Of a stretch of DNA of 64,000 nucleotides, positions 2,678 through 62,100 are shown piece by piece. Below the pieces are notes generated by a model. The model searched no databases, was not told the DNA's origin, and worked only from the letters and a program-made list of their open reading frames with translations. Both the position numbers and the translations under genes were made by a program. Each line of letters opens with the position of its first letter. Position 1 is the stretch's first letter. Source of the DNA: Asterochloris sp. CNOR1 (taxonomy: Eukaryota; Chlorophyta; Trebouxiophyceae; Trebouxiales; Trebouxiaceae). The DNA lies in assembly GCA_963969365.1 (NCBI GenBank), contig OZ017752.1:1178001-1242000 (forward strand). Direction: 5' to 3'.

Positions 2678-5600
2678 ATGTACATCAAGCAGGTGGGTCT
2701 GCTGACTTGCGCTCAGCTGCTGCTGTTTGAGTCACGAAGGCAAATTTGGGTGCGGGCAGGTGATCATCGAAGGCTTCAAGACTTACAAGGACCAAACCAT
2801 TGCTGAGCCCTTCAGTCCAAAGATCAACACCATTGGTAAGGCAGGACAATGCTGAGGTTGCAAAGCATGCCTTGCTGCGCTGTGCCATGCACCAACTTGG
2901 GCTGCCCCTCCTGTGTGTTGCAGTCGGCCCCAACGGCTCTGGAAAGTCCAACTTCTTCCATGGTACGCACTTGTGGGGATGCTGTGCCGCCTGACATGCT
3001 AAATTTGCAATGACACCCGTGCGCTGACCTGCAGCCATCAGATTTGTGTTCAGCGATGTGTTTGGCATGCTCAGAGCAGAGGAGCGACAAAGGCTGCTCC
3101 ACGTGAGTGCCTCTCCACAGAGGCCCAGCACGCACTATCCAGCAAGCAGGCCGGCATGCACTCCACAGTGGTGTTGGTGCTCAGAGGCTGCCCTGGGACA
3201 GCCCACCTGCCGGCCTGCAGGAGGGGGCGGGTCATGCTGTCGTGTCTGCTTACGTGGAGGTCGTTCTGGACAACAGGGACAGGCGTGCACCGGTGAGCCC
3301 CACCGTGCTGCCCTGTACAGGGCTGACAGGAGCAGCATGCAGGACTGCTTGTCCCAGCGCTGCTGCCCTGCAGCGCAAAGTCCAACGCAGGCCCCGTGCG
3401 CTGGACGGGCGGGCATGCAGGACAGACCCGTTGCTGCTGCTTTCTGGCATGATGCCCATATCTCTGCTGAATCCTCACCTGATGCTGCAGGTGGATAAGG
3501 ATGAGTTCAGGATTCGACGCACCTTTGGGGCCAAAAAGGATGAGTACCATGTGGACAAGAAAAGCACGACGTGGGTCTGGGCTGCTACCTCATGCAGCAC
3601 AATGAAGAGGCAGTGGCTGCCTAGTTATCACCACTGCAAGCGAAGCGCTGGAGTCTTGGGTCTTGTCTGTGCGTCTTCTACCCTCTACCCTCCCTGACCC
3701 CCGCAGTTGCGTGTGGCTGTGCAGGAAGAGTGAGCTGATGCAGCTGCTGGAGACGGCTGGTTTCTCCAGGTCTAACCCCTACTACGTGGTGCAGCAAGGC
3801 CGGGTGAGGCAGCAGACCACCGCCTGAAGGCAGCGCTTGCTGTGCGCTGGTCTGTCTGAGCACCGCCTGCAATCCTGGCCTGCAGACTGGGGCAGCTCCT
3901 GCATGTGCAGCCTGCATTGTACCTTGCTGTAGTTATTATCAAACCTAAGTAGCATGCAGGCTGGGGTGGCGGCTTGACAGCAGCGACCATCACTGCACAC
4001 AGAAGCCATCAGTGCAGCACATTAGACGGCGATGACACGCCTACCCTCACCTGCCCCTGCATGCAGGCCCATCACACTGCAGCAGTTCATATGCTTCAGC
4101 AGCCCTCATTGCTCTGTGTCTGTGTCAGACAATGCCCATGCCCATCCTCATGCAGGCAGGTGCCTGCCCTGTAGCAGCCTACATGGCAGCCGCGTGCCCT
4201 GCAGATCAAGTTCATTGCAGAGATGAGCGATGCTGACCGACTGGGCCTGCTGAAGGAGATTGGGGGCACTAAGGTGTACGAAGAGCGCCGTAAGGAGTCC
4301 CTTAAGGTCATGCATGAGGCTGAGGGCAAGCGCCAGCACATCCAGGACCTGGTAAGTCAGCCTGCCAGCACAAGCTGTCAGTCAGTGTGTGCAAGAGTCC
4401 TCAAAACATGCACAAGGCTGATGGCCGCGCCAGCTCATCCAGGACCTGGTGAGACCTTGCTGCCCAGTTGTTCAGTCAGCGGCGCAGAAGCTCAGGACCT
4501 GGTGCACCAGCCTGCCAGCACAGGCTACCAGTCAGACTGCCAAGACCCTGACCACCTGCAGGATGCTGTTGCGGCACCCGGGAGATGAGGGTGGGCTCCT
4601 GCCTGCCGTTGTGATGGGCTGGGGCAGAGGTCCAGCAGAACAATGTCATGCAGACACTGAGCTGCAGCTGCCTGCTGCATTCCAACAAGTCAAGATACAT
4701 TCACAAACATGAGCATGTGGACACAAGCTGTGCAGTTCAGGGGCCTTCGCATGCAACCAGAAGCTGATGGAGCAGCACCCTGCATGCACCTCTGCAGATG
4801 CTGCACCTGCTGGTTACGTCGGTCGCTGCCGCAGGCGCCCTCGTTCGTCTGCTCCTGCACACGGGCAAGACTCCACCCAAAACGGTCCCACCCTGTCAGG
4901 CAGCGTGCTCAGGCCCTGCAGCGTGCCCGCTGCAGGTGTCCTAGCTGGACGTGTAGCTGGCTGGGCTGCATCCTCTTCTGCCTTTGGGACTTTGTTCCTG
5001 TGCGCCCTGGCATGATCATCTCAACTTGAGCACCCACTGCAGGTGTCCCAGCTGGATGAGAAGCTGGCTGAGCTGCACTCTGAGCGCGAGGAGCTGGAGA
5101 AGTTCCAGAAGGTGGACCGCCAGCGGCGTAGCCTGGAATTCACCATCTTCGACCGTGAGGTGTCAGAGGCTGCAGAGAAGCTGGCGCAGGTGGGAGCATT
5201 GTGCCAAAGCATGATTGCATTCTTCATGGTTATTGGTGCAGTGTAGTGGGTCCTTGCCTGCCCTGGATGATGCCAGGCCAGCGCCTGGCCCTGCAGGTGA
5301 TGAAACTGCCTGCCGCACTGGGAGTCATGCCTCATGCATGGTAGGGAGCTGGTGACCACAGCTGTGCTGCTGTGTGAGAATGGGTCTTGCCTGGCTGGGC
5401 TACGCCTGATGCTGCACAGCAGAGGCTGAGCATCGCCCGCCTGTCCTGCTGCAGCTGCAGGAGGAGCGTTCCTCAGAGGTGCAGCAAGCGGGCAAGGTGT
5501 CAGATGAGGTGGAGCAGGCCAGCACGCGCCTGAAGGAGCTGGCCAGGGAGATCAGCAAGCTGGAGGCACAGCAGGTAGGCTGCTGCAGCAGGCCGCTTTC

Positions 5601-59182: not shown

Positions 59183-62100
59183 GATTTCATGCGAGCTGGG
59201 CCCATGAGCCCCAGCCTGGTGCCAACATTGCTGGCATCTGTTACAACTCCAAGCACAGACAGTTCGCCACATTTGATGAGCGGGGCGTGAAGATCTGGTG
59301 AGCTCTCATGTCACCTTTCAATGTTTGTTGCTGCGCAGGCAGTACCTTTGCTGATCCCACATGTGTACGGCCACGCAGGGGCCTCCAGCCCAGCATGAGC
59401 AGGCCCCATACCATACAGAAGAAGCAGCTGCAGGACGCCGCATTTGAGGCGGGGGAGACTGGTTTCATCACAGCGATGGCCTACATGCCAAAGCCAGACC
59501 TGTATGCAGCGGCCTGCCTGGACAGGACACTTCGGCTGTACAATTACCGTTTCAGGCTGCAGTCCGTCATGCATTGGGACGCTGGTGAGCTGACATGAAC
59601 ATTACAGGTTTCATTGAGTGCCTCTGTGCTGTCCACAGCTGTGCCTGAGCCGCCGATGACCTGGCACCTAGCCAGCGCGATGCATCTGTGGCTGGGTGTT
59701 AGGCTTGATGGCCAGCATGGGTGCTGCTTGCTCAGTGCTATTCCTGAGGCGGAAAGTTGTGCAGGCACGGCCATGCAGAGGCATCAGCGCTGCTGGGTCA
59801 ATGGCACTCAGGCTCTGCAGTCCTCTAGTCCCTTGAATCGCACATGCTGCGTCTGCCAGCTCTGAGGGTGCAGGCTGCGCACGACGCTGGCACCAGCAGA
59901 CCGGCCTGCCATTGGCCCTGCATTCCATGCAGCTGCCATTGGCTCTGCTTCCCATGCAGCTGCAGTTCCCCACCATGCAACTCAAGTGCTACCCTGCAGG
60001 CCTGGTGGTGTGCATGCAGAACCACCTGTTGCCGCCTGAACCCCTGCTGTCCGAGCCCTTTCCTCCGTGCTGCAGGCTTGCTCACCGCCATGCTGTGCAA
60101 GGCAGCAGCCCTGCTGGTCATGTGTCTGCCTGACTGCCCAGTGCCAGAACAGCAGCGCTCATGACCCCCTCCACTGCAGTGCAGGCATGGTGACCAGCCT
60201 GCTGTACACATCAAAGGTGGCTGCTGGTGTCCCGCACTCACTGTGTGTTGATCCCACACAGCAAGCCGTGACGCTCCTGTTGCAGTGCTGCAGGTATGGA
60301 GGTCGCTATGCTGCCCAGCGCAGAGTGGCTGCTGGTGCCCTCACTCACTGTCTCTGTGGTGCTGATCAGCCAATGTCCCTGCTGCTGCAATGCAGGCCTG
60401 GTGGTAAGCATGCTGTACAATGCAGACATGGCGGAGCTCATCACAGCAGGGTCCCAGGGCAGCAAGCTCTGGGGCTGCCAGTTGGACCTGGAGTCCTACG
60501 AGAAGCGGGCGCAGCAGAACCTGCACTACCGCGGGCGCCTGAAGACTGACCTGGCAAACCCCTGGGAGCTGGGGCAGTTCCAGTTTGTGCGGGAGCGGGC
60601 CACCCTGCGGTGAGTCTGGTCCCCTGCAGGCCTTCCTGACATAGCTGCCCTGGGCAAATCAGCACCTGTAACTTAGCCGCCATGGGCTTGAGGCCTATGG
60701 CTACAAGGCGCACGCAGCTGCTCTGCCACAATCAGAGTATCCTCAGCCGCCCCATGCCTCTTGGCCGCTGCTCTGCTGCAGGTCCCTGCTGCCAATCCAT
60801 ATGCGATCTCCCAGGAGCCTCCTCCCCTTTTAGGGACAGCACTAATAGCCAACAGGCAGTGCCCTCAGCCCCATCGGCCTTGGCACTGTTCGAGCTTTGA
60901 CAAAGCCAAGTTTCAGCCAGGTGCACACCCAGCAGGCCCCTCGTCCTCCTTTTGCAGTGTCCCCGGTGCCAATGACCGCCACAACCCTGGAGCAGCTCTT
61001 GTTGGGCAGGACCACAGTGTTAGTGCTGAGCCTGCCCTCTGAGTGCTTGCCTCTTGTTCTCTCTGGCGCCAACAGCACTGCCCAGTGCCAGCAGGTCCCA
61101 GTCCTGTGCCAGGAGTGCCTTCACATCCTGCTGCCGCGTGCCAGGGGCCAAGTACCACCCAGAGTCATCTCCCTGCTGCAGGGTACCACAGCCAATGACT
61201 GCCCCACCGCTGGGCAAGACTGTGGCTCACGCATTTCAAGGCATTTCCTGCCTTCCAAGAACCCACTTGCTAATTCAAGAAGTCAGCATAATTCAGATGT
61301 GATTCCCTGCTGCAGGGTGCCAGGTGCCAACGACCGCCGCATTGCTGGCGGAGGCCATGGCAAGCGCGACCCGAAGGAGTGGTGCACGCGCATCTTCCTG
61401 GATGCCAAAATGCAGGTGGTTTATGTGGCAATGCGCGGGTCTGTGTACGGCTTCCGCGTGCGCGATGCAGAGCGCATCTATGACTGGGAAGACATCCACG
61501 AGGTAGCTGCAGCACACTTCTGCGTGTCCTGTGTATGTGGGGACCTGGCTGCGCATTGCGTGCATGCATTTGTGTGCCTGCCAGTGTGCGCAGCTCTCTC
61601 TGCTTTTACCTTTGCAGTTGCACAGGGTGGCCAGGTCTCTGCTGCCTGAAGTTGTGATGGCCTGCTGTCTGGAAGGTGTGCATGCTTCAGAGATGTCAGG
61701 GCTTAGGAAGACATGGTCTGCTGCTGCAGAATGTGGTCTCAGCTGTAGTGCATCTGGGCCAAAATAGCCACCTCATCACTGGGTCACACGACATGACCGC
61801 CAAGGTATGCTGCCCTTTTGACTCCTCAGAGCTCTCGCTGTTTTCCTGGTGGCATGCATACAGACCAGCTGCCTTCAGCCAGAAGCATGCAGTGCTGGCT
61901 GCTGTGTTATGTCCCATTGCTAGCTGCAGACCTGCCTTCCATCTTACTTGTGAGTTGACCAGCCGACCTGTCTGGCTTCCGCCCGCCTGTCAGCCTGTTT
62001 GAGGACCTTGGATGTTTGCACATGCCTGCACCTGTCGGGCCATTGGCTCAGAGGGCAGCCTGACTCCAATGCCTCCTTGCCCGCACCCGCACGCCAGCCA

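Follow-up and report, generated by a model that had tools for sequence, protein, structure and literature searches.

Copies of exon edges in the introns of the green alga Asterochloris sp. CNOR1 and their likely origin in short tandem duplications across splice junctions

Do the introns of the lichen-forming green alga Asterochloris sp. CNOR1 carry copies of the exon edges that adjoin them, and how could such copies have arisen? The question is raised by a 64-kb stretch of contig 7 (hereafter the window, meaning the whole stretch analyzed) from a genome assembly of 56.4 Mb in 21 contigs. An earlier note on this DNA had claimed that introns of several genes on both strands contain imperfect copies of the last or first bases of the neighboring exon together with its splice site, and had interpreted them as traces of intron growth by local duplication. 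Our analysis of the window and of additional fetched loci has shown that the copies exist and form local, direct, side-specific and sometimes multi-copy repeats, with the intronic copies drifting. For orientation, a genome size of 56 Mb with 9 introns per gene has been reported for Asterochloris glomerata (PMC6652019).

The junction tests used a corrected gene model covering 74 records and 326,000 bases (11 overlapping loci were dropped), in which 91% of Pfam-hit bases are in the right frame and 47 of 685 predicted exons are shorter than 20 bp; all exon ends are gene-finder predictions. Among 593 introns, 435 were usable (both exons at least 40 bp, intron at least 90 bp), yielding 870 junctions, and the probe was the 40-bp exon edge taken without the splice consensus, with a match threshold of score >=28. 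Such exon-only edges match their own intron at 72 of 870 junctions (donor 35/435, acceptor 37/435). At least one copy is present in 69/435 introns, more than one copy at 12 of the 72 junctions, and 39 of the 73 records having usable introns contain at least one match, which supports the view that many genes have undergone local duplication across their splice junctions. The controls are far lower: 0.23% for donors and 0% for acceptors with reverse complements (1/870 overall), 0.05% and 0.09%, respectively, with shuffled introns, and 0.07% and 0.02% with other introns (0.10% in a second draw). Non-adjacent exons of the same gene match the intron in 4/2132 and 2/2132 comparisons (together 6/4264), and the next 40 bp inward in the same exon match their own intron in 6/346 and 4/350. 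The own-intron excess is approximately 60-fold or more over shuffles, other introns, reverse complements and non-adjacent exons, and approximately 6-fold over the next 40 bp inward. Comparisons with shuffled introns and non-adjacent exons had been proposed in the earlier note itself, and its claim withstood both.

For exons overlapping Pfam hits, 22/118 junctions have a copy (control 0.04%), while four arbitrary 10-kb blocks give 8/106. As the Pfam-hit loci are not a random choice, and their exons are conserved and hence detectable for longer, the arbitrary blocks provide the fairer rate. The exon-only probes match at 13/188 junctions inside the window and at 59/682 outside it.

A second survey was based on the first gene model, which had been seeded from Pfam pieces, half of them on the opposite strand. 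It comprised 264,653 bases in 55 records (two overlapping loci excluded) and considered matches with score >=36 within 400 bp. A local match was found for 2.4% of 40-bp intron probes, 3.5% of donor-spanning, 4.9% of acceptor-spanning, 1.6% of exon and 0.43% of intergenic probes, with 0–0.15% for the reverse-complement control and 0–0.12% for the distal one. The local matches collapse into 109 pairs, of which 51 are junction-crossing versus intron (27 I/IE and 24 EI/I, in left-to-right order and not strand-corrected), 14 are exon versus intron, 27 intron–intron, 2 intergenic, and 15 other mixtures. Thus, the placement of copies at exon edges, as described in the earlier note, holds for the junction-crossing pairs, but not for the intron–intron and intergenic ones. 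In the window, self-BLASTN (E<=1e-3) yielded 18 non-self matches, all 18 of them direct, 17 being less than 300 bp apart and one at 382 bp; no inverted and no distal match was found there at this threshold.

Copies are found on that side of the junction where contiguity would place them. Own-side matches are found in 51/646 cases versus 2/646 wrong-side ones (score >=28); in particular, exon heads match the preceding intron in 25/323 cases and the following intron in 0/323, while exon tails match the following intron in 26/323 and the preceding one in 2/323. This specificity indicates contiguity, since free local copying at similar distances would not yield it. The distance between copies has a median of 124.5 bp (10–90% range 86–261 bp; n=60 matches reaching the junction, in introns of 182–1014 bp). 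Copies are situated 55–430 bp away from the junction, those nearer than this being under-detected, as the first 20 intron bases were excluded. In 30-bp windows over 401 introns, the similarity peaks approximately between -40 and +10 of the junction, falls inside exons to at most 1.5% from -60 outward, and has an intron background of 0.5–3.3% from +30 on; for Pfam-supported exons the values are 0.070–0.105 at offsets -40 to 0 and 0.009 from -60 outward. Permissive extension of the matches into the exon has a median of 48.5 bp for donors (n=28) and 44 bp for acceptors (n=31). Four families, picked because they have several copies, can be aligned as repeats with units of 84–131 bp as delimited here, contiguous except for gaps in one of them (L011). 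The rest of the unit is also more similar than in shuffles (mean z 1.46, standard error 0.40, n=59; 24% with z>2), though in a first version of this test weak signals inside the unit (t 3.6 and 2.6) were accompanied by signals beyond its limits (t 2.2 and 2.0).

In the window, each exon edge with 10 intron bases was compared with its own intron and 200 controls (the lowest attainable p being 0.005). Among 218 junctions of 109 predicted introns, 22 are significant at p<=0.01, with about 2 expected, and 19 at p<=0.005, with about 1 expected, although some of these matches are short (13/14, 14/15, 16/17, 18/21). The copies of exon edges reported in the earlier note for several genes on both strands are therefore confirmed, the cases having been matched by position and not by exon number. 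Pfam support was obtained for the methyltransferase, Ariadne/IBR, Erv1/Alr, DNA polymerase A and WD40 protein genes of the window, while ZIP9 and secreted protein are the names given in the earlier note. The SMC3 protein, as spliced by our gene finder, shows a 92% match over 64% of the query to the JGI Astpho2 protein, a label that we take to denote Asterochloris. In tblastn the Astpho2 SMC3 protein aligned with the first 18 kb of the window in 19 pieces, seven of them at 95–100%, the remaining pieces being lower where they run past exon ends or gaps.

The SMC3 introns with a significant edge match are 4352–5042 (both ends), 7261–7798, 7883–8305, 9839–10476, 10642–10925, 11464–12230 (both ends), 12957–13765 and 15034–15367. 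The others are 20179–20531 in a small gene, 22741–23555 and 26857–27334 in the methyltransferase gene, 31424–31981 in the secreted protein gene, 37185–37509 in the gene called ZIP9, 39406–39530 and 41259–41795 in the Ariadne gene, 51577–52012, 53892–54294 and 55074–55389 in the gene of the family A DNA polymerase, and 60610–61315 and 61805–62215 in the WD40 gene.

Individual copies are given here on the plus strand and with p<=0.005 unless stated otherwise. The end of SMC3 exon 4205–4351 with its donor (edge 4317–4356) agrees with the Astpho2 SMC3 protein; its decayed copy lies at 4415–4453 (35/40), and a second, partial copy at 4493–4535 corresponds to 4343–4385, mostly the intron head (36/43; found by window self-BLASTN and in the pair set). 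At the other end of the same intron, the acceptor and start of exon 5043–5189 (edge 5033–5077, from the window junction test) have a decayed copy at 4926–4970 (39/45). The SMC3 exon end and donor at 7221–7267, identified in the same test, are copied at 7354–7402 (40/50). Further SMC3 acceptor edges are 8299–8315, with a short copy at 8131–8147 (16/17), 12227–12262, copied at 12069–12104 (31/36), and 13761–13788, copied at 13663–13690 (25/28), while the donor edge 11444–11473 is copied at 11588–11617 (24/30). The donor edge 14999–15037 has a copy at 15231–15269 (32/39), and 14970–15039 further matches 15352–15421 (junction test, self-BLASTN and pair set together). Outside SMC3, copies were found for the methyltransferase gene exon start 27336–27374 (27101–27138, 32/39), the secreted protein acceptor edge 31976–32013 (31856–31897, 36/42), the donor edge 37508–37541 of the gene called ZIP9 (37379–37412, minus strand, 30/34), the Ariadne acceptor edge 41791–41812 (41702–41723, 20/22), the DNA polymerase A donor edge 55385–55429 (55294–55336, minus strand, 39/45), and the WD40 acceptor edges 61306–61348 (61172–61213, 34/43) and 62207–62245 (62023–62062, 35/40). 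A young full tandem duplication with a 73-bp unit present 2.2 times covers the acceptor edge 51558–51586 of the DNA polymerase A gene on the minus strand, at 51558–51718, as seen in self-BLASTN and the junction test.

We consider it likely that these repeats derive from tandem duplications of approximately 120 bp straddling splice junctions, with the exon-proximal site staying in use and the intronic copy decaying neutrally. According to the proposed mechanism, short tandem duplications (unit approximately 60–260 bp, median approximately 120) would have arisen repeatedly in this alga, and one falling over a donor or acceptor would double the exon edge, the splice site and a piece of the intron. 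The exon-proximal site would remain in use, probably because exons are short and recognized across their length, and as a result the protein would be unchanged and the intron longer by one unit. The intronic copy would then be free to decay, whereas selection would preserve the real edge, and a junction pair would therefore remain recognizable longer than an intron–intron pair. Repeated duplication would build arrays of three to four units. Retained units carry little exon sequence (tens of bases), possibly because longer stretches would act as exon-like decoys within introns and be selected against.

The state of the copies bears on the assumed decay. Young pairs are few, the median identity being 0.84. 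Sorted by codon position in the copied exon, mismatch rates are 0.125, 0.126 and 0.175, a near-flat pattern indicating that the copies drift with little coding constraint. The splice dinucleotide survives in 27 of 46 copies, whereas the exon dinucleotide next to it survives in 39 of 46 (Fisher p 0.010); GT is kept in 14/22 donor and AG in 13/24 acceptor copies. When ages are drawn uniformly up to 0.5 substitutions per site, simulation yields a median identity of 0.89–0.91, higher than observed. The age spectrum of the copies thus leans old and gives no support to the continuous process proposed in the earlier note; tandem copies that are still near-identical may be lost again by collapse, so that diverged ones remain.

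Simulations of a tandem model with uniform breakpoints varied the unit size, age, constraint and indel rate; the observed pairs, like the median identity and the high-identity pair set, come from the first gene model. Units with a median of 110 produce copy-distance medians of 120–128, and at a low indel rate and ages of 0.15–0.35 substitutions per site the edge share is 0.68 and the identity 0.84 (observed 80/109 and 0.84), the edge share being 0.54–0.85 in other settings. Hence uniform random breakpoints fit the spacing and, for old events, the edge share and identity, but do not reproduce the short exon share. Detectability alone was rejected as its sole cause, as the simulations still give a longer exon share.

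Several observations weigh against simple tandem duplication. The ratio of the edge signal to the intron interior at -10/-20 is 2.8/2.4 for donors and 5.0/2.6 for acceptors, compared with 0.7–1.6 in four simulated settings. The exon extent exceeds 60 bp in 18 of 59 cases versus a simulated share of 0.52–0.57, and in five simulated settings the expected shares are 0.22–0.26 for junction-crossing pairs (observed 51/109) and 0.27–0.54 for exon-only pairs (observed 14/109). A retention term that decreases as the exon share grows (scale 20–40 nt) was added after the fact; it gives a share above 60 bp of 0.40 at scale 40 nt and 0.14 at 20 nt (observed 0.31). The rest-of-unit z is well below that of the low-indel simulation (3.6) and, though within error, also below the indel-rich ones (1.9–2.0), and the gene finder calls the second unit of array L041, one of the four, an exon. 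Among 17 pairs with identity >=0.92, 14 are 18–50 bp long and 60–408 bp apart, with ungapped flanks unmatched by eye, although one of these high-identity pairs, at 4330, belongs to a longer gapped match; as a recent tandem unit should match throughout, such pairs are not explained by a simple recent tandem duplication. Finally, TGC preceding AG is also kept in only 12/24 acceptor copies, so that loss of AG need not mean that decoys are disarmed, and active disarming is not supported.

The short exon share together with the sharp peak at the border would be fitted by a junction hotspot as well as by the retention term. It is thus conceivable, if doubtful, that a transcription- or splicing-linked process preferentially duplicates or copies DNA around junctions, and that introns of this lineage lengthen chiefly from their ends, each keeping a datable record. 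Slightly less probable is junction-directed copying, in which a process tied to splicing or transcription would insert an exon-edge stretch of approximately 20–50 bp, splice site included, in the adjoining intron, the whole interval not being duplicated. The position of the similarity peak, the edge excess over the random tandem model and the short high-identity pairs with unmatched flanks all fit such copying, but the side specificity and repeated units indicate contiguity, the rest-of-unit similarity is above chance, and a full-length young tandem unit is present at 51558–51718.

Selection for the copies as functional alternative splice sites or exon ends is improbable: GT and AG persist in over half of the donor and acceptor copies, respectively, as this would predict, but the codon-position pattern lacks the coding constraint to be expected, the splice dinucleotides are lost more than the neighboring exon bases, and the Astpho2 SMC3 protein joins exons at 4351/5043, bypassing the copies. 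Even less probable is a chance or gene-finder artefact, where splice consensus and biased composition would make introns resemble exon edges. Indeed, the strong acceptor consensus TGCAG/G can inflate matches that include it, and the predicted exon ends have no RNA basis; still, the exon-only probes retain their excess over all controls, including the next 40 bp inward, and copies are present at junctions of Pfam-supported exons. Dispersed intron elements (introners, miniature inverted-repeat transposable elements) with exon-like ends are the least probable source, with no evidence in their favor found in the window and fetched loci. There the distal rate of 0–0.12% contrasts with local rates of 1.6–4.9% for exon, intron and junction probes, and the window contains no distal match; the copy sequence being locus-specific, the statement of the earlier note that neither transposons nor introners are involved is upheld for these sequences.

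Tandem duplication across an intron–exon boundary is not nameless, as the earlier note had supposed: according to the accessible part of the study, it has been described for the RNA-dependent RNA polymerase (RdRp) gene of potato (Ma, Lan and Niu 2016, PMC4974935). There, too, the duplication covers an existing intron–exon boundary and copies its splice signals, but that single case made a new intron, while the many cases in the alga appear to lengthen existing introns and their copies are decayed. Tandem genomic duplication in general is also described in the literature as an established source of introns, in a model where an exon piece bearing AGGT is duplicated and the new intron ends match the exons. 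The alga shares with this model a short genic tandem duplication tolerated through splicing, but not its signature: matches such as intron head versus next exon head were found in 0/435 introns in both comparisons at score >=24, and AGGT-type intron gain is thus unsupported. In Drosophila, the available portion of Lehmann et al. 2010 (PMC2891723) describes tandem duplication and intron sliding, with footprints that may fade with age; its regional tandem duplications likewise include splice-like sites, but lead to new intron positions and not to copies of existing junctions inside introns. As far as the accessible text of De Grassi and Ciccarelli 2009 (PMC2812944) goes, internal tandem repeats alter human gene structure, similarly changing exon–intron structure from inside genes, but by minisatellite expansion in segmental duplicates and not by decayed junction copies. 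The word "tandem" is absent from the available part of the A. glomerata genome paper (PMC6652019). Among the papers found in searches of an open-access library, no title or abstract opening reported widespread junction copies in introns, most subscription papers being outside this search. Human introns are also said to have arisen from tandem arrays, with splice-junction sequences repeated in tandem and new alternatively spliced introns as a result (reportedly by Zhuo et al., PNAS, 2007).

What seems new, as far as searches of an open-access library show, is that one genome has so many decayed junction copies in its existing introns, although the rate in the alga may prove ordinary among genomes. 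Intron lengthening is usually attributed to transposons. With approximately one in five junctions at Pfam-supported exons, and 8/106 in arbitrary blocks, still having a copy, intron growth by border duplication becomes countable, datable and comparable between species. The junction copies would provide a readable record of intron lengthening in this alga, and many natural tests of how the spliceosome skips a duplicate lying close to the genuine splice site. The contribution to intron growth is partly borne out by intron length, with a median of 474 bp for introns with a copy versus 289 bp without, although longer introns also give more room for copies. The wording of the earlier note that introns are built from such copies is overstated, since the recognized exon-derived copies make up 2544 bp of 155,147 bp of intron in 69/435 introns; both values are lower bounds, as decayed copies escape detection.

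Some further repeats and splice-site features were observed. A 111-bp tandem duplication present 2.1 times (27892–28119, plus strand) lies in the open frame of the methyltransferase gene; it is probably the same kind of event, tolerated in predicted coding sequence because it is in frame, with 37 codons per unit. Local repeats seem rarer in predicted intergenic DNA, with 2 pairs and 0.43% of probes versus 2.4% of probes in introns, the intergenic sample being approximately 29 kb and gene-finder dependent. One fetched locus (L056, 566–1041) contains a long intron–intron local repeat with 143/195 identical positions at a distance of 286, without any exon edge. Short tandem repeats of 24–27 bp, distinct from the 60–260 bp class, are situated at 59906–59963, 56482–56539, 34066–34113 and 7250–7300. 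Predicted acceptors of the whole sample (first gene model) have T at 0.90, G at 0.93 and C at 0.98 in positions -5 to -3, then AG followed by G at 0.70, and the pyrimidine excess upstream of them is modest. At approximately 8767–8860, the Astpho2 SMC3 model has a 21-residue insert relative to ours; its coding sequence follows immediately on the exon that ends at 8767, and the donor that this insert would use sits between two 21-base copies that differ in one base.

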